In this document: positions 8,098-46,791 of the stretch, in pieces
How the letters are laid out: each line of letters begins with the position of its first letter
Position numbering within the stretch: position 1 is the stretch's first letter
From: Pseudophaeobacter sp.
GTDB lineage: Bacteria; Pseudomonadota; Alphaproteobacteria; Rhodobacterales; Rhodobacteraceae
Direction: 5' to 3'
Assembly: GCA_027019165.1 (NCBI GenBank)
Contig: JALUXC010000010.1
Span: forward strand, 148,035 to 212,034
DNA length: 64,000 bases
Program-made: the position numbers and the translations under genes
The notes under the pieces: model-generated
Databases searched by the model: none
Told to the model about the DNA's origin: nothing
Seen by the model: only the letters and a program-made list of their open reading frames with translations

Positions 8098-9831
8098 TTA
8101 CGTCATCGAGAGCTGAAGGTCACGGAAAACGCCGAACAGATATCCTCGGCAACCTAAATCAGCTTGAGCAAATTTCCGTTTGACGACCGCACGTCCCATG
8201 CGTATACGCCGCTTCACGACACCTGCCCAGGTGGCGGAATTGGTAGACGCGCTAGCTTCAGGTGCTAGTGTCCGTATGGACGTGGAGGTTCGAGTCCTCT
8301 CCTGGGCACCATTCCAGACTTTCGGGTCTGACATTCCCCCTAAAGCCTTGAATGGAAACGACATTTCAGGGGTTCTAGGCCCCTGATTTCGGCAGTATTT
8401 GATGTGGGATTTGAATGCCAGTTTCAGCACCAAACGACGGAGATGAATCTGCATCTGGCCAGGTGTTTCCCAGAGTTTCCAAGGGTTTGTCAGGAATGTA
8501 ATCGCTGGTTCTAGTTTTTCTTCGAAGGTGCCCTTGGGTTCAGAGCGTTTCGCGAGTTTTTCGGCCAGGCGGGCCTTGCTTGCTTCGTGATCGGCGATCT
8601 TTTCCTCATATTTCTGAATCACGGTGGTGTTGCTTGAGGCCATGATCAGCTCGAGCAGCCTGTCGATCTCCTTATCGATTTTCCCAATTTGGCGCTTTCC
8701 TTGGCGCAACAGGTCGGCAGCTTGTGCCCGTCGCGCCTGCCAGATGTGGCGGAACATGGCGGAGAGCATGAGAACAGACGCAGGATTGGGCTGGAGCGTT
8801 TTGACGATCTCGCCAATCTCGCCTTCGATCTGATCGCGTTTGATGGATTTTCCGTAAAAGTCGCAGGTTTTGGTCTGACACAGGTAATAGGCATAGGTTC
8901 CGCCATTGCCCTTCGTAAAAGACGAGCGCAGCGGCACCTCACAGCAATCGCAAACGGCGATACCGCGCAGGGCGAATGCATTGCCGATATTCTTGCGCTT
9001 CGGGGCCTTGGCCTTGCCTGTGCGACGCTCTTGCACCTTGTCGAAGGTTTCCAGCGAGATCAGCGGCTCGTGCTGTGCCTTGAGCCAGTTGATCCCGTAG
9101 CGTTCGGAACAAATATGGCCGGTGTATACCGGTTGGGTCAGAATATCGGTCACCCGTTGCTGGGCAAGCTTGCCGTTCTTGAGATGCGGAAAGTCGGGAA
9201 AGGATTCGAAATAGCGCTTGACCTCGGCCTGACTGCCAAATCGACCATTGGCATAACCTTCGAATGCTTCGCGGATGACACCCGCCAGAGGTTCATCCGG
9301 TACGAGGACCTTGCCGTGCCCCTTTTGGGTTTCGTATTTCAGGCCAACGGGCGCACGGTGGACAAAGTAACCTGCCTGCATCCGTGCCTTCATCTTCTGC
9401 GCGACCTGCCGACCATTCTGCTTGCGCTCCAACTCTCCTTGCGCCGCGATGATGGTCTCGATGAACTCTCCTTCGGGACTGTCCTCTTCGAACTTGAAGT
9501 TCAGACAGGCAATTTGCGCACCCCGCGCACGCAGCGCTTCCCGTAGTTCGAGGTGATATTTTGTGGAGCGGGCGAAGCGTTTCGGATCGTCGAACAGGAC
9601 GATAAAATTCTCTTCCGGTTGTGCGTCGAGGAAAGACAGTAGAGCAACCATGCCAGGGCGCTTCATGAAATCTATGCCGCCGCTGATTGTGTCGGGGAAG
9701 GAGGCCACCACTTCCCAGCCTTTGGAGGCCGCAAACTCACGACACCGGGATTCTTGACTGCTTAGCCCATGGCCCGTCGTCTCCTGACCCCGCGAACTCA
9801 CCCGAGAATATATAACAACTTTCTGTCTCAT
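8098..9831 (-). CDS. Large serine recombinase (resolvase + recombinase + zinc ribbon); ORF runs antisense through tRNA-Leu
   Basis: 577 aa; VVIYSRVSSRGQETTGHGLSSQESRCREFAASKGW N-terminal resolvase motif with catalytic Ser; C-x2-C zinc ribbon (VCDCCEVPLRSS...CQTKTC). The C-terminal segment GAQERTRTSTSIRTLAPEASASTNSATWA is the antisense translation of the tRNA. Confidence 0.92.
   Translation of the reverse strand: MRQKVVIYSRVSSRGQETTGHGLSSQESRCREFAASKGWEVVASFPDTISGGIDFMKRPGMVALLSFLDAQPEENFIVLFDDPKRFARSTKYHLELREALRARGAQIACLNFKFEEDSPEGEFIETIIAAQGELERKQNGRQVAQKMKARMQAGYFVHRAPVGLKYETQKGHGKVLVPDEPLAGVIREAFEGYANGRFGSQAEVKRYFESFPDFPHLKNGKLAQQRVTDILTQPVYTGHICSERYGINWLKAQHEPLISLETFDKVQERRTGKAKAPKRKNIGNAFALRGIAVCDCCEVPLRSSFTKGNGGTYAYYLCQTKTCDFYGKSIKRDQIEGEIGEIVKTLQPNPASVLMLSAMFRHIWQARRAQAADLLRQGKRQIGKIDKEIDRLLELIMASSNTTVIQKYEEKIADHEASKARLAEKLAKRSEPKGTFEEKLEPAITFLTNPWKLWETPGQMQIHLRRLVLKLAFKSHIKYCRNQGPRTPEMSFPFKALGGMSDPKVWNGAQERTRTSTSIRTLAPEASASTNSATWAGVVKRRIRMGRAVVKRKFAQADLGCRGYLFGVFRDLQLSMT
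8225..8311 (+). tRNA. tRNA-Leu (anticodon CAG)
   Basis: GCCCAGG...CCTGGGC acceptor stem, CTAGC-TTCAGGT-GCTAG anticodon arm, long variable arm, GGAGG-TTCGAGT-CCTCT T-arm, encoded CCA. Confidence 0.95.
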
Positions 9832-31170: not shown

Positions 31171-31419
31171 TGCGCATGTCCAATGGACAAAGTCAGGTCA
31201 TTTAGTACCGCTCCTGAATTTTGCAGCACCTGCAACTCTGGACTTAAAACCGCCTTGCGGCAATGCAGCAAAGAAGCGGAGTGCTACGCGTTTGGGATGT
31301 CAGCTTTCGGAAAGAGGGCCTGATCAGCTCGCGCTCGCCGCAAAAGTCCGGTCTCCGCCGCCTGTACCATACAACTGTATGTATTTTCGCGATTTCTCTT
31401 GCAACTTTCAATCACATTT

Positions 31420-31434
31420 GTTCTTGGTATGTTC
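31420..31434 (+). promoter_or_regulatory. Putative LexA (SOS) box GTTC-N7-GTTC
   Basis: GTTCTTGGTATGTTC, 35 nt upstream of the ATG of the 88-aa CDS at 31470. Confidence 0.6.
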
Positions 31435-31469
31435 CTACCTGTTGAACCCGTACTGAGTAAGGAGATTTT

Positions 31470-31736
31470 ATGAGTGCAGATAGCAGAAACAGCAATACAG
31501 CCGACAAAGACCCCGGATTGAAGCGCCCGTTCATGCTGGCCTATACCGTCAAGCCGATTGATGATGGCAAGAATTCCGTTTGGAGCAAGATCGGTGCCGC
31601 CTGGGCACATAAGGATGGGGAAGGTTATGAGGTCCGCATGGACGCGCTGCCTGTCGATGGGCGTGTTGTCTTGCGAACGGTGAATGACCGCGATGCCGAG
31701 CAATCCGGCGAGGTTCTTGATCGCTCACCGCAATAG
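31470..31736 (+). CDS. Small hypothetical protein under a putative LexA box
   Basis: 88 aa; AAGGAGATTTT-ATG; FMLAYTVKPIDDGKNSVWSKIGAAWAHKDGEGYEVRMDALPVDGRVVLR. Confidence 0.75.
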   Translation: MSADSRNSNTADKDPGLKRPFMLAYTVKPIDDGKNSVWSKIGAAWAHKDGEGYEVRMDALPVDGRVVLRTVNDRDAEQSGEVLDRSPQ

Positions 31737-31766
31737 AATAGATAAGCCAGTTTACTGCGTGGGGAG

Positions 31767-31798
31767 AGGGCGATCCTGTTGGGTCGCCCTTATTCTTT
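31767..31798 (+). terminator. Rho-independent terminator
   Basis: AGGGCGATCC-TGTT-GGGTCGCCCT stem followed by TATTCTTT, just after the 31470 CDS. Confidence 0.75.
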
Positions 31799-31881
31799 GC
31801 GCACCTCGGCGCAGCCGATCAGGCTCTCGTACAAGCACCAAGCCCGCCCGCGCGGTCTTGGCCATTCGGCGTTCTTCTTTT

Positions 31882-32163
31882 GAAAAGCCAAATCGTTGGC
31901 TTTTCATCCCGCAAGCGGGAACAATCATCACTCCCTGGTGTGGTTTTGTGGCGGCTTTGCCGCCGCATTCGTGGTCTTTGTCGGGGAAGCCGAGAGGCGT
32001 TGCCTCTTCTCTCCCCGCAAGAAAAACAGATCGAAGAGATGCTTGCTTTGACGGTTTCCGGCACGCTGGAGCCTCCGCCAAAGACAGAGCATCTTTCGCC
32101 GATTTTTCTTGTCCCCTCCCATCTCCACTCTCGGCGAGGGCCAAGGGTTGCAAGCGCAACCCC
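31882..32163 (+). other. Hairpin-rich noncoding leader upstream of ardA
   Basis: Consecutive inverted repeats: GAAAAGCCAA/TTGGCTTTTC (31882-31905), TCCCG/CGGGA (31907-31920), GGCGGC/GCCGCC (31950-31964), CGGGGA..AGAGGC/GCCTCT..TCCCCG (31982-32017), AGATGCT..CTTTG/CAAAG..AGCATCT (about 32038-32094), GGGTTGC/GCAACCC (32145-32163). Confidence 0.7.
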
Positions 32164-32187
32164 TGATCCAATTGAGAGGAGAACATC

Positions 32188-32694
32188 ATGACCATTCAAC
32201 TCCATGCCCAACCCTACGATATTTCTGCGGCGGGTTTCTATTTCGACAGCTACGAGGATTATGCCGACAAGGCTTTGAAAATGCGGAACGCTTACGGCGA
32301 TCCCGTCGAAGAATTCGAAATCCAGTTCATCGATGGCGATCAAATCGACTGCGATCTTGCCCGCGCCATCGGCCTCAATCAGGCCAATCTCAAACAGTAT
32401 TTCGATGCGGTGGAAGACTGGGACGACGACGACAAGACTCGCGTGATTTTAGCGGTGGGCGAATGTGGCTACACCTTCGAAGACAGCACCCAGCCGAGCG
32501 ACTTTGATCTGGACATCTATCCCTTCGACACGATGCGCGAATTTGCCGAGCATTTTGTCGAAGAAGGTCTTTTCGGCGACATCCCCGAACGCCTGCAATT
32601 CTACATCGATTATGACGCCATCGCCCGTGATCTGGGCATGGATTATGCCGAGGCTGAGGTCGCTGGCACCCGTTTGATTTACCGCTGCGCATGA
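32188..32694 (+). CDS. ardA: Antirestriction protein ArdA
   Basis: 168 aa; DIYPFDTMREFAEHFVEEGLFGDIPERLQFYIDYDAIARDLGMDYAEAEVAGTRLIYRC typical ArdA C-terminus. Confidence 0.9.
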   Translation: MTIQLHAQPYDISAAGFYFDSYEDYADKALKMRNAYGDPVEEFEIQFIDGDQIDCDLARAIGLNQANLKQYFDAVEDWDDDDKTRVILAVGECGYTFEDSTQPSDFDLDIYPFDTMREFAEHFVEEGLFGDIPERLQFYIDYDAIARDLGMDYAEAEVAGTRLIYRCA

Positions 32695-32777
32695 AGGGAA
32701 TGCAGCCCCAAGCCGTTCCGTGTGAGCGGTTTCAGGGTGCAATCCCGCATCGAGTTATCAGAAAAGGAAACATTCCC

Positions 32778-34541
32778 ATGACATTACAACATATCGACAT
32801 CAACGACCTCACCATTTCCCCGCTCAACGTGCGCAAATACGGCACGAAGGACTGCACCGATCTGGTGATCAGCATCCGCGCCCTTGGCGTTTTACAACCG
32901 CTCTTGGTACGCCCTGCTGGTGAGGGCTTCGAGGTGGTCGCAGGCCAGCGACGTTTGAACGCCTGCCGCATCCTTGCCGAAGAAGGGGAAATCACCCCGA
33001 TCCCGTGCCTTGTGATGGCCGAGGGGGATGACGCAGCCGCAATCGAAGCCTCGCTTGCCGAGAATGTCGAACGCCTTCCCATGGATGAGGTGGATCAGTT
33101 CAAGGCTTTTTCCAAGCTCTTGAAAGAAGGCCGCACAGCCGAGGATATCGCCGAAACCTTCGGCATCACCGAGCGTATGGTTGCGCAGCGTCTGGCTTTG
33201 GGACGGCTGCATGCGCCGATCCTGACCGCCTATCGCAAGGGTGATCTTCATGCCCGTGACATCCGCAACCTGACCATGGCAACCATGAAGCAGCAGAAGG
33301 CATGGTGGTCATTGGTCAAAGACGAAGGCAGCAATGTCCCCACGGGACAGCGTCTGAAAGACTGGCTCTTCGGCGGGGCGCATATCCCGACCGACCATGC
33401 GCTCTTTGACGTGGAAGAATCCGGCTTGCCGGTTGTTGCCGATCTCTTTGGGGAGGACAGCTATTTTGCCGACAGCGAAGCGTTCTGGGCTTCGCAAAAT
33501 GCCGTCATTGCCGAACGGGTTACGGCCTATCACGCAGAGGGCTGGGCAGATGTGATCGTGATGGACGTCGGCGCGTATTTTGCAAACTGGGACTATCGCA
33601 CGGCCTCCAAGGCCAAGGGTGGCAAGGTGTTCATCACCTGCACAAGTCAAGGCGAGGTCAGTTTCCACGAGGGCTATCTGACCAGTGCCGAGGCCAAACG
33701 TCTTGAGAAGGCCGAAGCAGGCACACCGCCTACGCAGAAGCCCGAAATCACCAAAGCCATGCAGAATTATCTCGATCTGCACCGCCATGCCGCCGTGCGC
33801 CGTGACCTTCTGGATGCGCCCGACATGGCCTTGCGCCTGATCGCGGCGCATATGATTGCGGGATCATCGCTCTGGGACGTGCAGGCCGACCCGCAAAAAG
33901 GGACGAAACCCGATATTGCCGAGAGCCTTGCCACCAATACCGCGCAGCAGGCCTTCGAGGCAGAATCTCAGGCCGTGGCGGAACTCCTGGAACGGGATGG
34001 AACATTGCTGGCAACCCGCGGGGGTTATGAGTCGCGCCCCGACATGGCGATTGTGCTGACCAAGCTGATGCTGCTGGATGATACGTCAGTCCTGCGCATC
34101 CTCACATGTCTGATGGCAGACAGTCTCGCAGTGGGCACCGACCTGATCGAAATGCTGGCAGTCGAGTTATCCACGGACATGACCTCTGCGTGGGAAATCG
34201 ACGATACTTTCTTTGATCTGATGCGTGACAAGGAGGCCATTAACGTCATGGTCGCGGAAATCGCGGGCGAAACAGTCGCAAATCAGAACGTGACTGCGAC
34301 TGCCAAGGTGCAGAAATCCATCATCAAGGCCTGCCTTGATGGTACCCGCACCACGCAGGTCGAGAACTGGACACCGCGCTACATGACAGTGCCACCGCAG
34401 GGCTACACCAGCCGCAGCGCTTTTGTGGAACCTTCACTCGAGGCCGAAGGCCTCGCTATCGCGGCGGAAGAACACACTCATGGCTCGGGGCACATGGCAG
34501 TGTTCCGAGCCAGCCCACAAAAAAAGCGCGGCCAGCCCTGA
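32778..34541 (+). CDS. ParB/Spo0J-like nuclease/partition domain protein
   Basis: From MTLQHIDINDLTISPLNVRKYG...; LGVLQPLLVRPAGEGFEVVAGQRRL...AENVERLPMDEVDQFKAF ParB N-terminal motifs plus HTH; long C-terminus; no ParA nearby. Confidence 0.88.
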   Translation: MTLQHIDINDLTISPLNVRKYGTKDCTDLVISIRALGVLQPLLVRPAGEGFEVVAGQRRLNACRILAEEGEITPIPCLVMAEGDDAAAIEASLAENVERLPMDEVDQFKAFSKLLKEGRTAEDIAETFGITERMVAQRLALGRLHAPILTAYRKGDLHARDIRNLTMATMKQQKAWWSLVKDEGSNVPTGQRLKDWLFGGAHIPTDHALFDVEESGLPVVADLFGEDSYFADSEAFWASQNAVIAERVTAYHAEGWADVIVMDVGAYFANWDYRTASKAKGGKVFITCTSQGEVSFHEGYLTSAEAKRLEKAEAGTPPTQKPEITKAMQNYLDLHRHAAVRRDLLDAPDMALRLIAAHMIAGSSLWDVQADPQKGTKPDIAESLATNTAQQAFEAESQAVAELLERDGTLLATRGGYESRPDMAIVLTKLMLLDDTSVLRILTCLMADSLAVGTDLIEMLAVELSTDMTSAWEIDDTFFDLMRDKEAINVMVAEIAGETVANQNVTATAKVQKSIIKACLDGTRTTQVENWTPRYMTVPPQGYTSRSAFVEPSLEAEGLAIAAEEHTHGSGHMAVFRASPQKKRGQP

Positions 34542-34558: not shown

Positions 34559-34619
34559 ATTTGATATTAAGAACAAGTATGTGGTAGTATAAAGTAGGAT
34601 AATCAAATTGGGGCCATCT

Positions 34620-34871
34620 ATGAGTATGATCAAAAAGAGCATTACCGTGACCGACAGTCAGGACGCCTTCATTCAGGCGCAGATCGCCTCCGGTCACTAT
34701 GCGTCCGACAGCGAAGTGATCCGCGAAGCCCTGCGCGAAAAGGAACTGCGCATGGCCGAGATTGACTCCCTGCGCACGAAGCTGATCGCCTCCGAAGAAA
34801 GCGGTCTCAGCGAGCGCAGTCCCGCCGACATCCGAAAAGCCGCGAAGGAGCGCCTGAAAAACGCTCTATGA
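34620..34871 (+). CDS. parD: Type II antitoxin, ParD-like
   Basis: KKSITVTDSQDAFIQAQIASGHYASDSEVIREALREKE ribbon-helix-helix; overlaps the parE start. Confidence 0.88.
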   Translation: MSMIKKSITVTDSQDAFIQAQIASGHYASDSEVIREALREKELRMAEIDSLRTKLIASEESGLSERSPADIRKAAKERLKNAL

Positions 34872-35161
34872 CAAAACTGACGCTCCGCATTACACATGTC
34901 GCGGATCAGGACCTCGACGATCTCTACACCGAAGGCTTCACGACTTGGGGCGAAGCCCAGGCCGACCGCTACTATGACGGCTTGCTGGAGCGGTTCGAGC
35001 GCATTCGCGAACACCCGAAAATGTATCCGGCGGTCGACGACATCCGCGAAGGCTACCGCCGCTCCGTCTATGAAAAACACAGCATTTACTATGTAATCGA
35101 CGAGGACTCCGTCGAAATCCGAGCGGTCGTAAAGTATCAGGACGTAGCACGCAGGTCATAA
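34868..35161 (+). CDS. parE: Type II toxin, ParE/RelE-like
   Basis: 97 aa; ADQDLDDLYTEGFTTWGEAQADRYYDGLLERFERIREHPKMYPAVDDIREGYRRSVYEKHSIYYVI. Confidence 0.9.
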   Translation: MTKLTLRITHVADQDLDDLYTEGFTTWGEAQADRYYDGLLERFERIREHPKMYPAVDDIREGYRRSVYEKHSIYYVIDEDSVEIRAVVKYQDVARRS

Positions 35162-37003: not shown

Positions 37004-39706
37004 TTACCCCATAGACGGTCCATCACGGGTTCGGGTCGGGCGGCGTTGTTGTGTTCGATCCATCGCCCAGGTGGGTCGATCTCGATTGTTGACGAAGACG
37101 CCCATGTTTTCGCGGTGGCGGGTCATCGCGACGTAGATAAGGTGGCGATCCATAGAGCGGGAGGTCAGAACGTAGGATTGGTCGACCGTTGCACCTTGGG
37201 ATTTGTGGATGGTGACAGCATAGCCGTGATCGAAGCTGTGGAAGTCGTTTGGATTAAAGCAGACGAGGCGATCTTCATCGCCATCTAGAGCAACAGCCAT
37301 TTGACCGTTCTCCGCTTTTACGACGGTGCCCAGCATGCCGTTCTTGACGCCGATATTTTTGTCATTGCGTGTGAAGACGATGCGGTCGTCTGCTGCAAAG
37401 GCGCGTTTGCCTGTGTCCGTTTTGAACAGGGTTTCAGGTGATGCCTCGCCGTTTGAGCGTAGTGCAGAACGGATGGCCTGGTTGAGCGCATGCACATCCT
37501 TGCGTTTGTGGGCGAAGGCCAGACGGGATTTGGCGGCCCCATTTGCGGCGACATCTATTGCGTAGGTTCCGACCAGTGCCTCAATCGCCGTTTCGCGTGT
37601 GTGACTACGAGATACGGCACCGCGATTTTCATAGCTTTTTATGGCGCTCCACATATCGCCGTCAGCCAGATCGCGCGAGGCTCTTTTCTGCCAATCCGCC
37701 GTCTGGCGGTGGATTTCGGTCAGGCGGTCCGCGCCATGCGTTTTGACGATCTGCCTAAATGGGGTACCCGCCTCGATGGGTTGTAGTTGATCGGGATCGC
37801 CGACCAGTACCAGTTTTGCGCCAATCTCGTTCATTTTGGTGGCAACACGCGCTAACTGTCGTGTGCCGACCATTCCGGCTTCGTCGATGACGAGGACATC
37901 ACCCTTTGAGATCGGTTCATTTCCATTTTCCCATGACAGTTCCAGCGAAGCCAGCGTTCGGCTTTTGATGCCGGAGGCATTCTGTAGTTCCTCTGCCGCT
38001 TTCCCTGCCAGAGCGGCTCCGTGAACAGTAACGCCTTGTTTCGCCCAAGCGTTCTGCGCCGTTGCGAGCAAAGTGCTTTTCCCTGCGCCCGCGAGTCCGA
38101 CAACAGAGGAAAGTTGTTTATCACCCAAAACATGGCGCAGGGCGTGTTGTTGTTCGTCGCTCAGTTTGCCACCGAAGGCCCGTTTCATGTTGGCATTCTG
38201 CGTTTTGATCGCGTCTTTGATATGCGACGCAGACACAGCAAATCCGTGTTGGCTCACCATCAATCCGGTCGCATGAACCAATTTCCGCTCGGCAGCCTGA
38301 TAGTTCTTCGTCGTGAAGACAGGGACAGTCCCATCATCGGGCAACCGCACCAGTTGAGGCGCGCGCATGGCCTGATCCGCCGCCTTTTGCAACGCCATTG
38401 GATCGTCAATCTTCTGAGCGAGCGTACGCAACACATCAACCCGTTTGAAGGCCGCTTTGGTTCGCGAGATATGATCCAGAACCAATTCAGGTGATTTAAC
38501 AAGTTGGGCGGCGGAATATGAGACACCGCCATCGTTCAGAACAAGCGCTTGTTTAGGATCAGTTTGAACTTGCCTGTGGAACGCAACAGACAGGCCTTGT
38601 TTCTGGGCATCCCGCGCGAGGGCTCGCCGTTCGCTGAGATGTTTGGTGATCAGAACCTGTTGCGCCGCACGGTTCTGGTGCTCTGCAGCCCGTGCCTCAG
38701 CTTCAATCTGGCGAAGCCTTATCTGATATTGACCCGTTGCACGCGACAAGAGCCCACGCAGGCCTTTGGGCAGACCGGCTTGTCGCGTTTTGATGTCTTC
38801 AAGGCGTTGGACTGCTTGCCGCTTGAGCAGATCAGCACGTTCTTGGCGTTGTGCTTCAACCAGCTTGGCCCGCCGGGCTTCGAAAGCAGTCTTCTGAGGA
38901 TCGACGGTTTGCCTGAGCAAGTCCTGCAAACGATCAGCGACCTTGTCAACGGACGGCAGGTTCCTCTCAGATCCGAGCCGCGCCCGCATCTCGTTGGGTT
39001 TGACGCCACACCAACGTGAGAGCGACCAGACTTTGCCGGATGCATCGACAGCCACAAAGCCACGCCGATCACCACATGCAAGGACAAAGCCGTGCTCATT
39101 CAGGGCCGCCTCAAACCCCGCCTTAGAATCGGACGCTTCCCAGCACCCCCGAAACATTTTCTTGATGGCCTTCGGATCACGCTTGGTGCGATTGGCTTGC
39201 CCGGCTTCCTCACGGCTGTAATTCAGCGGATCGCGTTTTGCTTTGTTCTCAAACCCGCGCGGAACCTCCCAATCATGGGAGAGGAACAGTTCGTGAGACA
39301 GCGCTGTTAGCTTGCGTTTATAATGCGGCATGTTGATCGCTTTGAGCGCCAGCCCATCAATCCGTGACCAGACAGCATGGGCATGCCGCCGACCATTCTT
39401 TTCGTGGAAGACAATCGCGCGGGGCTGACCCGTGAGACCCAAACGCTGCTCGGCTTGAGCCACCGCCGCTTCGAACTCCGCAACGGATACCTCAGCGTCA
39501 GTGGGTGGGTTCAGAGATAACGAGAACAGGTATTTCTGGCACTGTGTGGCATTGGATATCGCCTCTGCCTCGGCAAACGCGCCAAGCAAATCCTCGGCAA
39601 CGAACCCGCGCATAGAATGCACGGTGACATGATCGTTGTCGCGCGGATTCAGCAAATGCCGTGCGAGTTCGGATCCATAGCCACGTTCGTTGCCCTTAAG
39701 AATCAC
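37004..39706 (-). CDS. Relaxase (VirD2/MobA-like) fused to a RecD/TraA-like helicase
   Basis: 900 aa; N-terminal GYGSELARHLL and three-His GRRHAHAVWSRIDG relaxase motif; C-terminal VVGLAGAGKSTLLATAQNAW, VLVIDEAGMVGTRQLARV helicase motifs. Confidence 0.92.
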   Translation of the reverse strand: MILKGNERGYGSELARHLLNPRDNDHVTVHSMRGFVAEDLLGAFAEAEAISNATQCQKYLFSLSLNPPTDAEVSVAEFEAAVAQAEQRLGLTGQPRAIVFHEKNGRRHAHAVWSRIDGLALKAINMPHYKRKLTALSHELFLSHDWEVPRGFENKAKRDPLNYSREEAGQANRTKRDPKAIKKMFRGCWEASDSKAGFEAALNEHGFVLACGDRRGFVAVDASGKVWSLSRWCGVKPNEMRARLGSERNLPSVDKVADRLQDLLRQTVDPQKTAFEARRAKLVEAQRQERADLLKRQAVQRLEDIKTRQAGLPKGLRGLLSRATGQYQIRLRQIEAEARAAEHQNRAAQQVLITKHLSERRALARDAQKQGLSVAFHRQVQTDPKQALVLNDGGVSYSAAQLVKSPELVLDHISRTKAAFKRVDVLRTLAQKIDDPMALQKAADQAMRAPQLVRLPDDGTVPVFTTKNYQAAERKLVHATGLMVSQHGFAVSASHIKDAIKTQNANMKRAFGGKLSDEQQHALRHVLGDKQLSSVVGLAGAGKSTLLATAQNAWAKQGVTVHGAALAGKAAEELQNASGIKSRTLASLELSWENGNEPISKGDVLVIDEAGMVGTRQLARVATKMNEIGAKLVLVGDPDQLQPIEAGTPFRQIVKTHGADRLTEIHRQTADWQKRASRDLADGDMWSAIKSYENRGAVSRSHTRETAIEALVGTYAIDVAANGAAKSRLAFAHKRKDVHALNQAIRSALRSNGEASPETLFKTDTGKRAFAADDRIVFTRNDKNIGVKNGMLGTVVKAENGQMAVALDGDEDRLVCFNPNDFHSFDHGYAVTIHKSQGATVDQSYVLTSRSMDRHLIYVAMTRHRENMGVFVNNRDRPTWAMDRTQQRRPTRTRDGPSMG

Positions 39707-40143
39707 CGGCGCGACCTTTGCTTTTTGCCGAGCGCCTGCATCAACATCGCCCGAATGGCGGCCAAATGCGCATTGGCTTCGGCAATCTGATCTTTCTCCG
39801 TCTCTCCTACGATCAAGGCACCGATATTGGCATGGTAGGCGAGTTGGTTGAGATTGCTTGCAATCCGAGACTGCCCGAGCAGAGCCAACGCCTCAGCCGC
39901 TGCTTTCTTTTGCTCAACCTGATCCTCAGGCCGTGTCTTGCGCAGCTTGGAATCCTCAGCAAAGACACAAGCCCGCACATAGGCACTCAGCGTCATACCC
40001 GTCGCGAGTTCTTCCAACCGCGCCCGTTCCTCGGGCGTCAGCCTTAGGGTCAATGGTGACAAGGCAGTACGTGTCTTACTCGAAGACGCATTTACGAACA
40101 CTGGCGTGACATTCGGATCATGTGATGATGCAAGACGGGTCAT
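39703..40143 (-). CDS. MobC-like relaxosome protein
   Basis: 146 aa; LRLTPEERARLEELATGMTLSAYVRACVF RHH and LAYHANIGAL; overlaps the relaxase start. Confidence 0.85.
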   Translation of the reverse strand: MTRLASSHDPNVTPVFVNASSSKTRTALSPLTLRLTPEERARLEELATGMTLSAYVRACVFAEDSKLRKTRPEDQVEQKKAAAEALALLGQSRIASNLNQLAYHANIGALIVGETEKDQIAEANAHLAAIRAMLMQALGKKQRSRR

Positions 40144-40484
40144 GGCGAAGGCTCCTCGAAAGAAGCGGCCAATCCCGGTTCGTCATCGGCGTGCTCCAAG
40201 GCACTTTCTGCAGCCTCCGCAAATGCCGATAACCTATGGATAACATCCGGCTCGGCCTGAAGAATGCTTGTCCATTCCTCCAACTCTGTCAGGATCTGCT
40301 CGCACTCAGAAGGTTCTAGGTTATTCCTCCCCGGTGCACCATCCCCATTACTCAGTTCATGTTCCGCGTTGCGATCAGAATAGACGCGAACTAGAGGCTC
40401 GCAAGCCGCACAGGCGTGCTGATCAGCAGGCTTGGACGCCCATGCGAATGATGTCGCGCCCTGATATCCGATAGATCCCGTCAA
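40140..40484 (-). CDS. Hypothetical protein overlapping mobC start (start codon uncertain)
   Basis: 114 aa ORF, ATGA overlap with mobC; its 5' part overlaps the next CDS, so the true start is probably internal. Confidence 0.4.
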   Translation of the reverse strand: MTGSIGYQGATSFAWASKPADQHACAACEPLVRVYSDRNAEHELSNGDGAPGRNNLEPSECEQILTELEEWTSILQAEPDVIHRLSAFAEAAESALEHADDEPGLAASFEEPSP

Positions 40485-42559: not shown

Positions 42560-43447
42560 CTACGGCTGCAGCAATCGCTCAAGATAGGCTCCGTAATCGT
42601 TTTTCTTGAACAGATCTGCGCGGGCCTGAAGCTGCTGGTCGTCAATCCAGCCCTGTTCATAGGCGATTTCCTCAAGGCACCCCGTCTGAAGACCCTGGCG
42701 TTTGGTCAGCGTGCGCACGAAATTCCCGGCATCCAGCAGCGATCCATGGGTGCCCGTATCGAGCCAGGCATAGCCCCGCCCCATCGTCTCAACCCGAAGA
42801 GCGCCTTTGTCGAGATACATCTGAAGCAGATCCGTAATCTCCAGTTCCCCGCGAGCAGAGGGTTGAACCCGACGCGCGCGTTCAGGCGCGTCACCATCAA
42901 GAAAATAGAGCCCGGTCACAGCATAGTTCGAGGGAGGGACCTCCGGCTTTTCTATGATCTGCCGGGCGGTTCCATCGCTGTCGAATTCCACGACGCCGTA
43001 ACGTTCCGGATCGGCCACATGATAGCCAAAGACCGTACCGCCTCCATCCTGTTGGTCTGCCGCAGCAAGCAGCTTTGGCAGGCCGTGGCCAAAGAAGATG
43101 TTGTCGCCCAGCACCAATGCAGAGGGCGCGCCATCCAGGAAATCCTCAGCCAGAAGATAAGCCTGTGCCAAACCGTCTGGGCTAGGCTGCACAACGTAGC
43201 TGAGCGACACGCCCCATTGGCTGCCGTCTCCTAGAGTGCGCTGGAACTGCTCCTGATCCTGTGGCGTGGTGATTACGCAGATCTCGCGAATCCCGGCCAG
43301 CATCAAAACCGATAGAGGATAGTAGATCATCGGTTTGTCATAGATCGGAAGCAGCTGCTTTGAAACGCCCATGGTGATCGGGTAGAGCCGGGTGCCAGAC
43401 CCCCCCGCCAGAATGATGCCCTTCCGAGACTTGCCAGATGTTGTCAT
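42560..43447 (-). CDS. rfbA: Glucose-1-phosphate thymidylyltransferase
   Basis: [45 protein letters not shown]. Confidence 0.97.
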
Positions 43448-44295
43448 GCGCTTTCTCCCAGGTCCTTCAAAATCTCATCCAAGCCCGCACGCCAATCTGG
43501 GCGGGAAATTCCAAATACAGTTTTCAAAGTGGAACAATCGAGCCGTGAATTCAGTGGGCGTTGCGCCGGGGTAGGGTAATCGCTTGAAGGGATATCCACC
43601 ACGTCGCAGGACAAGCCAGCGCGGGCAAAGATCTCACGCGCAAAATCCGCCCAATTGGTGTCGGGTTGCCCCGACAAATGGTAGGTTCCGCTTTTTCCTG
43701 GATCCTCAGACAGCTGTTGGGCCATCCCGATACAGGTCTTTGCAATATCCCGCGCCGGGGTCGGCGAGCCGATCTGATCGGCAACGATGGTCAGGCGCCC
43801 CCGCTCGGCTCCGAGCCGCAACATGGTCTTGACGAAATTGTTCCCATGCGCCGAGACCACCCAGGAGGTGCGCAGGATCGCATGCACGCCGCCCGCTGCG
43901 CGAACGGCCTCTTCACCGACCAATTTGGAGCGGCCATAGGCACCCAGGGGGCCTGTGGCATCATCGGGCTGCCAGGGTGCAGTGCCGCCGCCATCAAAAA
44001 CGTAGTCGGTTGAAACGGTTACAAAGGGAATCCCAAGATCGGCGCAGGCCTGCGCCATTGCCGCTGGCGCGACGCCGTTGATCATGGTCGCCAGCTCTTC
44101 TTCGTTCTCGGCTCGGTCCACCGCCGTGTAGGCGGCCGCATTGATTACCGCGTTGGGGGCCTGTGAGTGGATTGCTGCAGCGCAGGCTTCCGGATCGGTC
44201 AGGTCTGCCGTATCCCGCCCCAGACAGACAATATCGTCAAAGGCCGCCAGTTCGCGAGCCAACTGTCCGGTCTTGCCAAAGGTGAGAATGGTCAA
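43444..44295 (-). CDS. rfbD: dTDP-4-dehydrorhamnose reductase
   Basis: [16 protein letters not shown]...[16 protein letters not shown]...[10 protein letters not shown]. Confidence 0.96.
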
Positions 44296-44391
44296 ACGTT
44301 CGGCTCCCTTTCATTCCGGGCTGTCATCAGCCCAACTTCTCGTATTGCCTGGCGTCGTTCTGCGCCTTACCGCCAAAAGCGCGCCAGATGA

Positions 44392-45159
44392 CTAGTCCAG
44401 CAGGCGTTGCTTCAGATTGGAGAGATTTCGGCGCATCCGACTGGCGAAAGTGTCTCTCCGATTGAGCCATTCCTTCGATTTGTCAGGCGGTGTTTGCTCA
44501 ATTGCATCGAACAATGCCGGGAAAACAGATCCGTCCCGCTCAAGAACCGCGTCGTAGTCAATGACGATCAAGCGGCCTATGCCTTCCCAAAACGCACACA
44601 GCTCATCCGTCTGATAGTACCAGCTACCGTTTGTACTTTCCGCATCGGATACACCTTCAAGCAAAGGCGTGACCGATGTTTTGTTGAGCTGGTTCTCGCG
44701 TGATGCCGCCCAGGCTTCGCGAGAGCGCAAACACAAAATCGGGACGATCTCGGAAAACAAAGGCGTGAGGTGCTGAAGCAGCCGCTCGGCCTCCTCGGGC
44801 GTGCGAAGCAGGCAGAATTCTTCGCTGGACATGACAAAATCATGGGCCGCGCTGGCTTCGACCATCTTTGCCAACCCCGCCATGACACGCTGGGTATCGG
44901 CCTCATCCGGCATAGGTGCATTGCGCAAAAGACGCGGACTTGTTTTCAAACTTGGGCGGATAAAGCAGTTCGCGAGCAAGAATGCATTGGCCGAACGTTT
45001 GCGCGCGATGGGCTTACCATAGAGAACTTCGAACCCAGCGCTCCGAAGCTGTGGCGCCATTTCACACAATGCAGCCTGAAAGGAGGTTGTGCCGGTCTTG
45101 TGAGTGCCAACGTGCAGAAACAGGCGTCGATTTTTAACTTCACTCTTGTTACCAGTCAC
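44392..45159 (-). CDS. Sulfotransferase-family-like protein
   Basis: RRLFLHVGTHKTGTTSFQAAL 5'-PSB-like motif; located between rfbD and rfbB. Confidence 0.65.
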   Translation of the reverse strand: MTGNKSEVKNRRLFLHVGTHKTGTTSFQAALCEMAPQLRSAGFEVLYGKPIARKRSANAFLLANCFIRPSLKTSPRLLRNAPMPDEADTQRVMAGLAKMVEASAAHDFVMSSEEFCLLRTPEEAERLLQHLTPLFSEIVPILCLRSREAWAASRENQLNKTSVTPLLEGVSDAESTNGSWYYQTDELCAFWEGIGRLIVIDYDAVLERDGSVFPALFDAIEQTPPDKSKEWLNRRDTFASRMRRNLSNLKQRLLD

Positions 45160-45162
45160 TGC

Positions 45163-46215
45163 CTATTCTCCTTTGCCCAGCCGCTGCCCGACACCGTGGC
45201 GGGTTTGCAAAGGACGCCACCAGGCCTCGTTGTCGAGGTACCATTGCACGGTTTTGGCCAGCCCTTCTTCGACTGTAACACTCGGCTGCCAGCCCAGTTC
45301 GTCTCGGATACGCGAGGGATCAATGGCATAACGTGCATCATGGCCAGGGCGGTCGGTCACGAAGGTGATTTGATCGGCATAGGGTTTGCCATCGGTACGC
45401 GGGCGTTTGTCATCAAGAATGGCGCAAAGCGTCTGTACCAGTTCGAGATTGGTTCGCTCATTCTCGCCGCCAATATTGTAAGAGCGACCCAACGCACCCT
45501 TTTGCAACACCAAGAGAAGCGCATCTGCGTGGTCCTCAACATAAAGCCAGTCGCGGATGTTGGAGCCATCGCCATAGATCGGTAGTGCTTTTCCGGCCAG
45601 TGCGTTGAGGATGACAACCGGGATCAGCTTCTCTGGGAAATGATATGGACCGTAGTTGTTGGAGCAGTTGGTCAGCACCACCGGGAGCCCATAGGTCTCA
45701 GCCCAGGCGCGTACCAGATGATCGCTGGCGGCCTTGGAGGCCGAATAGGGCGAGCGTGGGTCGTAGCTGGTCTCTTCGGTGAACATGACCTCAGGGTCGG
45801 CGGGCAGCGATCCGTAGACCTCGTCCGTCGAGATATGGTGAAAGCGGAAGCCGTCAGGCTTGCCTGCCTGGACCCAGTGCTTGCGGGCTGCCTCCAACAT
45901 GTTGAAGGTGCCGGTGATGTTGGTCTCGATAAAATCGCCGGGCCCGTCGATGGAACGATCCACGTGGCTTTCGGCGGCCAGATGCATAACCGCATCGGGT
46001 CTATGCGCGTCAAAGATCCGGTCCAAAGCGGCGCGGTCCCGGATATCGGCCTGTTCAAAAGCGTAGTTCGGACTTTTCGCCGCCTCGGCCACATTCTCCA
46101 GGCAGGCGGCATAGGTCAGCGCATCAAGGTTCACCACCTGGTGGCCGCGCGCAATCGCCAGACGCACCACGGCAGAGCCGATAAAGCCCGCACCACCGGT
46201 CACAAGTATCTTCAT
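45163..46215 (-). CDS. rfbB: dTDP-glucose 4,6-dehydratase
   Basis: [20 protein letters not shown]...[22 protein letters not shown]...[15 protein letters not shown]. Confidence 0.97.
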
Positions 46216-46218
46216 GGG

Positions 46219-46791
46219 TTATCCTTCCCAGGTGAAGGGGCTGTCGAAATCAGCAAGAGCAGGCGCGGCAGCGTCTTTTTCGGACAACACCGGCGTCCCG
46301 TCATAGCCCCAATCGATGCCGCAGCTGTCCCATGCCACGGCGCCATCGCACTCGGGTGCGTAGTAGTCGGTGCACTTGTATATGATCTCGGTATCGGGCG
46401 CTCGGGTGATGAACCCATGCAGGAAGCCCTTGGGCACCAACAACTGCTTGCCGTTTTCTGCAGTCAGTTCGATGCCAAAATGCTGCCCGTAAGTGGGTGA
46501 ACCTTTTCGGATATCCACTGCAACATCATAAAGGACCCCGCGGCCGCAGCGCACAAGTTTGTCCTGGGCGTGGGGGGGAGACTGAAAATGCAGCCCGCGC
46601 AGAGTGCCCACCTGGGCCGACAAGGAATGATTGTCCTGCACAAAGTCGAAGTCCAGACCGTGATCTGCCATCCGCTTGCGGTTCCAGCTCTCGCTGAAAA
46701 AACCACGTGCGTCCCCGAAGCGGGCAGGTGTCAGTATTTTCAGCCCCAAAATCGGTGTTTCTTCAATCTGCACCACGAAAACCTTTTTCAT
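46219..46791 (-). CDS. rfbC: dTDP-4-dehydrorhamnose 3,5-epimerase
   Basis: LKILTPARFGDARGFFSESWN...LRGLHFQSPPHAQDKLVRC. Confidence 0.97.
   Translation of the reverse strand: MKKVFVVQIEETPILGLKILTPARFGDARGFFSESWNRKRMADHGLDFDFVQDNHSLSAQVGTLRGLHFQSPPHAQDKLVRCGRGVLYDVAVDIRKGSPTYGQHFGIELTAENGKQLLVPKGFLHGFITRAPDTEIIYKCTDYYAPECDGAVAWDSCGIDWGYDGTPVLSEKDAAAPALADFDSPFTWEG

Follow-up and report, generated by a model that had tools for sequence, protein, structure and literature searches.

The antirestriction gene ardA of Pseudophaeobacter sp. (assembly GCA_027019165.1, contig JALUXC010000010.1) is preceded by a dense run of inverted repeats, raising the question of what such DNA might be doing there. 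Coordinates given here are those of the window, the whole 64,000-nt stretch that was analysed, which corresponds to contig positions 148,035 to 212,034. An earlier interpretation made from the letters alone (the sequence-only reading) had proposed that the repeats may act as a single-strand promoter or ssi site, with a cis-regulatory RNA as the alternative. What is known of single-strand promoters comes mainly from enterobacterial plasmids, and searches for them have relied on known Frpo/ssi sequences together with E. coli consensus hexamers (PMC11541004). The best explanation of the results described below is that the region belongs to a portable family of structured leaders found at one end of relaxase-carrying alphaproteobacterial elements. 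That the leader is single-strand-promoter-like and serves establishment genes, with no sequence relation to the leaders of ColIb-P9, is a reading to which we would give roughly an even chance.

The ardA locus and the folding of its leader

The ardA gene (32188-32694, + strand; Pfam PF07275, E=5.3e-7) has an RBS-like AGGAGA (32177-32182, + strand), read from the sequence, 5 nt 5' of its start and is followed by a ParB-like gene (32691-34541, + strand; PF02195 and PF17762). Both genes had been recognised in the sequence-only reading, but that picture of the locus was incomplete, as it missed a relaxase with a RecD/TraA-like helicase domain (37004-39706, - strand; PF03432, E=2.8e-10; PF13604, E=2.6e-55) and a NikA/MobC-like accessory gene (39703-40143, - strand; PF21983, E=1.3e-7). 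The relaxase, which matches TIGR02768 (TraA_Ti) with E=4.4e-160 at a score under the family cut-off, is convergent with ardA and shares the region 5-8 kb downstream with the accessory gene. The space from the ParB-like gene to the relaxase contains genes for a ParD-like antitoxin and a ParE-like toxin (34608-35161), and dTDP-rhamnose biosynthesis genes (42560-46791) adjoin the element, close to the end of the 212-kb contig. Upstream of the leader is a small ORF, orf88 (31470-31736), for which Pfam and NCBIfam give no match. It is preceded by a GTTC-N7-GTTC box (31420-31434) that we take to be an alphaproteobacterial LexA-type box, and orf88 is therefore probably SOS-regulated. Similar boxes are present in loci L005, L006 and L007, whilst in L089 and L090 a stretch of structured appearance, like another leader type, precedes orf88 homologues downstream of ardA.

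When folded as RNA, 31882-32163 has an energy of -126.9 kcal/mol (z -6.42 against 200 dinucleotide shuffles). As DNA, the + and - strands give z -6.33 and z -5.50 respectively, again with 200 shuffles each, and in none of the three cases did a single shuffle fold as well. Every inverted repeat named in the sequence-only reading is present where it had been placed, and its expectation of better folding than in shuffled controls was thus borne out.

The run of hairpins is conserved in part. Its first two members, GAAAAGCCAA/TTGGCTTTTC (31882-31905) and TCCCG/CGGGA (31907-31920), are local hairpins outside the conserved blocks, whereas 31945-32163 forms the conserved core of the leader, homology in relatives beginning somewhere between ~31932 and ~31977. 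The core opens with a partly conserved hairpin GGCGGC/GCCGCC (31948-31966), which has pair-changed counterparts in L005, L027, L031 and L035, followed by a compound hairpin CGGGGA..AGAGGC/GCCTCT..TCCCCG (31982-32017) that is kept in leaders of the A1 and A2 types described below. Next comes a long imperfect hairpin (32018-32111) with interchangeable apical modules and an outer stem, CAAGAAAAA/TTTTTCTTG, that covaries (A-U/G-C and U-A/C-G). A small hairpin of 3 bp, GGC-GAGG-GCC (32133-32142), shows GGC/GCC to GCC/GGC covariation in relatives, and the 3' hairpin GGGTTGC/GCAACCC (32145-32162) is conserved with exchanged pairs. The 3-bp hairpin had been overlooked in the original list, as had element 2 further upstream (~31799-31876, + strand), the diverged form of a conserved structured element with the consensus GGGCTNTCGTGAACCRARCC..GGTYTYGGCCATNCGGCTTCSATCCCTTGCGC and a stem CCAAG..CTTGG (31838-31861). 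Element 2 is optional, being present upstream of ardA in many relatives and missing from several leader types; in an exact-pattern search, every match lay upstream of ardA and nowhere else.

A consensus scan of 31200-32400 detected no sigma-70-like -35/-10 on the + strand, although alphaproteobacterial or divergent promoters could escape such a scan, and no promoter-like site on the - strand inside the leader. A sigma-54 (-24/-12) reading of GGCCAAGGGTTGCA was rejected, the spacing being one off and the site, judged by eye, not conserved. In Rfam, neither the window leader nor those of 12 relatives reached the gathering score of any family, and permissive E-values brought chance matches only.

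Related leaders and the genes behind them

Eighty ardA loci were collected, nearly all of them alphaproteobacterial according to their record titles with a few from assemblies labelled otherwise, and most of those listed show a visibly structured leader before ardA. By DNA similarity the leaders fall into groups of 34 (the window included), 12, 8, 4, 4, 3 and 2, plus eleven singletons. Within the group of 34, types A1, A2 and B were distinguished by visual inspection, with a few members omitted, and the remaining groups were named C to G8; singletons were left out of pooled tests. The types have their 3' part in common and differ in their apical modules.

The stems are also supported by covariation among these relatives, as the sequence-only reading had envisaged. 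In an alignment of 28 A1 leaders, 35 cells that have changed on both sides keep their pairing, compared with 14.0 (sd 2.5) in shuffles. Paired cells amount to 83.9% in this alignment against 38-56% with slid partners, a comparison flattered by the structure having been written by hand from A1 itself. A - strand alignment of 11 sequences contains 43 pairs, 13 of them with double changes, and in strand-neutral folds of eight leader types more than one Watson-Crick pair type is seen at 116 of 550 pairs. We conclude that a family of covarying leaders, of which 31945-32163 forms the core, is located upstream of ardA across the Alphaproteobacteria. Searched against plasmids, leader DNA found no matches and the ArdA protein three partial ones from Sulfitobacter. 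Six pattern-scan matches in viral contigs were dismissed as chance, having a coding-like context and no ardA or relaxase matches.

A covariance model (R2) was made from A1, and its structure was set down once the pair counts had been inspected; an earlier model (R1), which comprised 3 pairs only, was not used for searches. Across 385 alphaproteobacterial genomes, R2 produced 16 matches in 13 genomes, the window counted. The match in the window (32018-32164) scores 106.8 bits, the window belonging to the training set, and those in L153 to L158 and L160 are weaker, at under ~40 bits. The genes behind R2 leaders encode ArdA of the window type (L146, L147 and L157), canonical ArdA (L149, E=1.9e-44, and L150), an N6/N4 DNA methylase (L151, E=2.4e-35, with a truncated methylase copy behind L159), a NikA-like protein (L158) and, identified by eye, an orf88 homologue (L161), whilst L153, L154, L156 and L160 are followed by ORFs without a name. 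At three of the 16 leaders (L148, L152 and L155) no ORF begins at the expected place. The distance from leader to start codon is ~20-30 nt before canonical ArdA, the methylase, the NikA-like gene, the orf88 homologue and others. Since canonical ArdA, a DNA methyltransferase and a NikA-like gene are also found behind it, the leader is portable and not exclusive to window-type ardA. Establishment and anti-defence genes (two kinds of ArdA, the methylase and the NikA-like gene) are thus found directly downstream, with a relaxase in the same elements, and the conserved, covarying fold lies directly before ardA or another establishment gene. A separate covarying alphaproteobacterial family of this kind yields a model that finds such genes by their leader and not by their own sequence, including the four without a name, and makes early ssDNA expression testable outside the Enterobacteria.

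The same positions bear on the possibility that the structure is an ssi-type priming site for second-strand synthesis, used by primase, PriA or an RNA-polymerase primer, with its proximity to genes incidental. A strand-biased structure of many hairpins within a mobilisable element would suit this function, and Frpo reportedly both transcribes and primes, to go by the title of Masai and Arai's 1997 paper as cited in PMC11541004. Wherever there is an ORF, however, the leader is directly 5' of it, with an RBS, and in one genome (G258) the leader is repeated before genes, which priming alone would not need. We regard this explanation as improbable.

Strand bias of the fold

Wobble pairs can indicate which strand of a conserved structure is under constraint: if it is the mRNA fold, G.T should appear on the + strand, and if it is the other strand, A.C should do so. 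Counts from RNAalifold gave G.T:A.C of 93:87 in structures derived from the + strand, 58:126 in those derived from the - strand and 37:47 for the pairs common to both. Each of the two strand counts is biased by its own energy model, and they were replaced by a strand-neutral version in which G.T and A.C carry equal weight. In the conserved stems obtained in this way, the + strand has 147 G.T cells against 290 A.C cells, which owing to shared ancestry are not independent. Slid partners provide a background of 425:545, over which the excess of A.C is ~1.5, and composition accounts for part of this. A TPP riboswitch control taken from relatives goes in the opposite direction, at 42:7 (a raw count, with no slid background). 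When the types are taken separately, the - strand is preferred in six of the eight; type E shows no preference (11:9), and the counts of type D point to the + strand (46:32).

Folding energies were also compared. RNAalifold alignment energy is lower on the - strand in seven of the eight types, as is single-sequence energy in 65 of 77 leaders, a figure partly explained by composition. By shuffled z-score, the - strand is favoured in 45 of 77 leaders, with no significant strand difference (p=0.17); applied to the TPP control, this measure preferred the mRNA strand in no more than 17 of 27. Our conclusion rests on the wobble counts and not on per-sequence z-scores: since A.C exceeds G.T, opposite to the TPP control, the constraint on the fold appears to act on the template strand of ardA and not in the mRNA, for which there is statistical support but not proof.

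This result bears on the alternative of a cis-regulatory RNA, in which a folded 5' leader of the ardA mRNA would control translation or termination. A conserved, covarying leader directly 5' of the RBS would suit such an RNA, and both the z-score of the + strand RNA fold and the wobble preference of type D are in keeping with it. The mRNA strand is, however, deficient in G.U-type wobble in the pooled counts where the riboswitch shows an excess, - strand alignments fold better in all types but one and no Rfam family is matched at gathering score. The alternative is weakened accordingly and we consider it quite unlikely. An antisense RNA made from the - strand could also bear the structure and would share the - strand bias. 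A TPP-like RNA would be expected to have a wobble excess of ~6:1, whereas that seen here is ~2:1 (~1.5 over background), and the leader has no promoter-like - strand site from which such an RNA might start, making this very improbable.

Candidate element ends and likeness to known systems

In nearly all relatives where a relaxase was found, it is convergent with ardA (exceptions include L003, L019, L034 and L071), and in the independent genome set a convergent relaxase was found at up to 3 kb from the leader in 6 of 12. Minimal elements consist of leader, ardA, relaxase and mobC with no visible integrase; those in L042, L044, L046, L073, L075, L077 and L165 are an estimated ~2.3-2.8 kb in size and have these parts only, L165 being without ardA. 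To the right of the leader ardA, relaxase and mobC are conserved, and to the left almost no genes are, orf88 alone being found in some loci. Matches to the left flank of the window stop inside the neighbouring gene in relatives and so give no boundary.

On the mobC side, conservation has a sharp onset at TGGYG. A candidate right end, TGGTGCACC..GGAG..TAGAAC (40295-40341, - strand, inner extent approximate), marks this onset in the window; the onset is conserved in ~23 relatives and nothing is conserved beyond it. The alignment pattern forces TGG, so that information comes from the positions after it and from the flank alone; a start codon there could also mimic the onset. The stretch looks like a DNA site because it is interrupted by an in-frame TAG in several copies, and our inference is that the transferred strand has its 5' end here. 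An oriT upstream of mobC was rejected, as apart from the right-end site there is no conserved noncoding DNA there. In L086 (reversed), the C-terminal half of another ardA directly adjoins residue 29 of the relaxase (8228-8488), as though a deletion had fused two tandem elements, and one more leader with an ardA fragment follows at ~12077.

The strongest rival explanation is that the leader is itself an end of the mobile element, an oriT or termination site where the transferred strand would have its 3' end and be recognised, as a folded single strand, by the relaxase; its place before ardA would then follow from the architecture of the element. Its position at a boundary of conservation, the minimal elements without visible integrase, the three leaders that persist without an ORF and the - strand bias all fit. 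Against such an end, leaders have the same orientation and a similar spacing to RBS and start codon before unrelated genes, the L159 leader precedes a second methyltransferase copy ~10 kb from the relaxase, that of L161 precedes an orf88 homologue, and many leaders lack element 2, which would be the best candidate for an oriT. On balance we find this explanation somewhat unlikely. The leader might conceivably serve both as an anti-defence single-strand promoter and as the ssDNA-recognised end of a ~2.5 kb, integrase-free, relaxase-driven element inserted in a T-DNA-like manner, with a sharp, relaxase-bound right end and a variable left end; this dual role is rather improbable.

If the leader is a single-strand promoter, the ardA template strand would be the strand entering the recipient. 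The incoming single strand would fold, RNA polymerase would initiate on the folded ssDNA and ardA, with parB behind it, would be expressed ahead of second-strand synthesis, allowing early ArdA to shield the incoming DNA from restriction. The leader would then act as the Frpo/ssi promoters of enterobacterial plasmids do. Part of what the sequence-only reading proposed in this respect has gained support, from the fold, its conservation and covariation, the association with antirestriction and relaxase genes, the template-strand wobble bias and portability; neither a sigma-70-like -35/-10 on the + strand of the window leader nor sequence similarity to ColIb-P9 leaders was found. The missing + strand site and the lack of such similarity count against the promoter, as do the three leaders without a gene, the + strand lean of type D, the neutrality of type E, the share of the A.C excess that composition accounts for and the shuffled z-scores, which do not separate the strands. 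In the usual layout, oriT is upstream of the relaxase operon and the relaxase enters last. By this rule it is the + strand, not the ardA template, that would be transferred, which also argues against a promoter.

Amongst known systems, structured 5' leaders and riboswitches are alike in position and covariation, but here the wobble asymmetry is reversed relative to the TPP control and Rfam has no match. The recognition structures of oriT and relaxase, and HUH-mediated element ends (IS91-type, T-DNA), likewise place hairpins at the end of a relaxase element whose other end is sharp. Unlike these, the leaders keep a regular relation to RBS and start codon and are also found before genes in other positions.

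Frpo/ssi promoters have their -35 and -10 inside a hairpin. The window leader is without an E. coli-type -35/-10, and alphaproteobacterial leaders differ further from Frpo/ssi in having several modular architectures with conserved loops and in their location, which is an end of small elements that carry a relaxase and not a mapped leading region. Compared with the ardA and ssb leaders of ColIb-P9, they show chance-level matches of 11-19 nt only (E 0.73 or worse); in a 250-nt shuffle control, the ColIb-P9 ssb leader alone, and not that of ardA, folds better than chance. The likeness is one of arrangement. Frpo/ssi of F and IncI plasmids (ColIb-P9 ardA, ssb and psiB) also consist of long structured DNA directly before anti-defence or establishment genes, and in the ColIb-P9 ardA and ssb leaders it is again the template strand that folds with lower energy. 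According to PMC11541004, anti-defence genes of leading regions are encoded by the strand that is transferred and have ssDNA promoters. In ColIb-P9 the ssb, ParB-like, psiB, psiA and ardA genes are grouped in one orientation, and two of these kinds of gene, ArdA and ParB-like, are the same as those found in the alphaproteobacterial elements.
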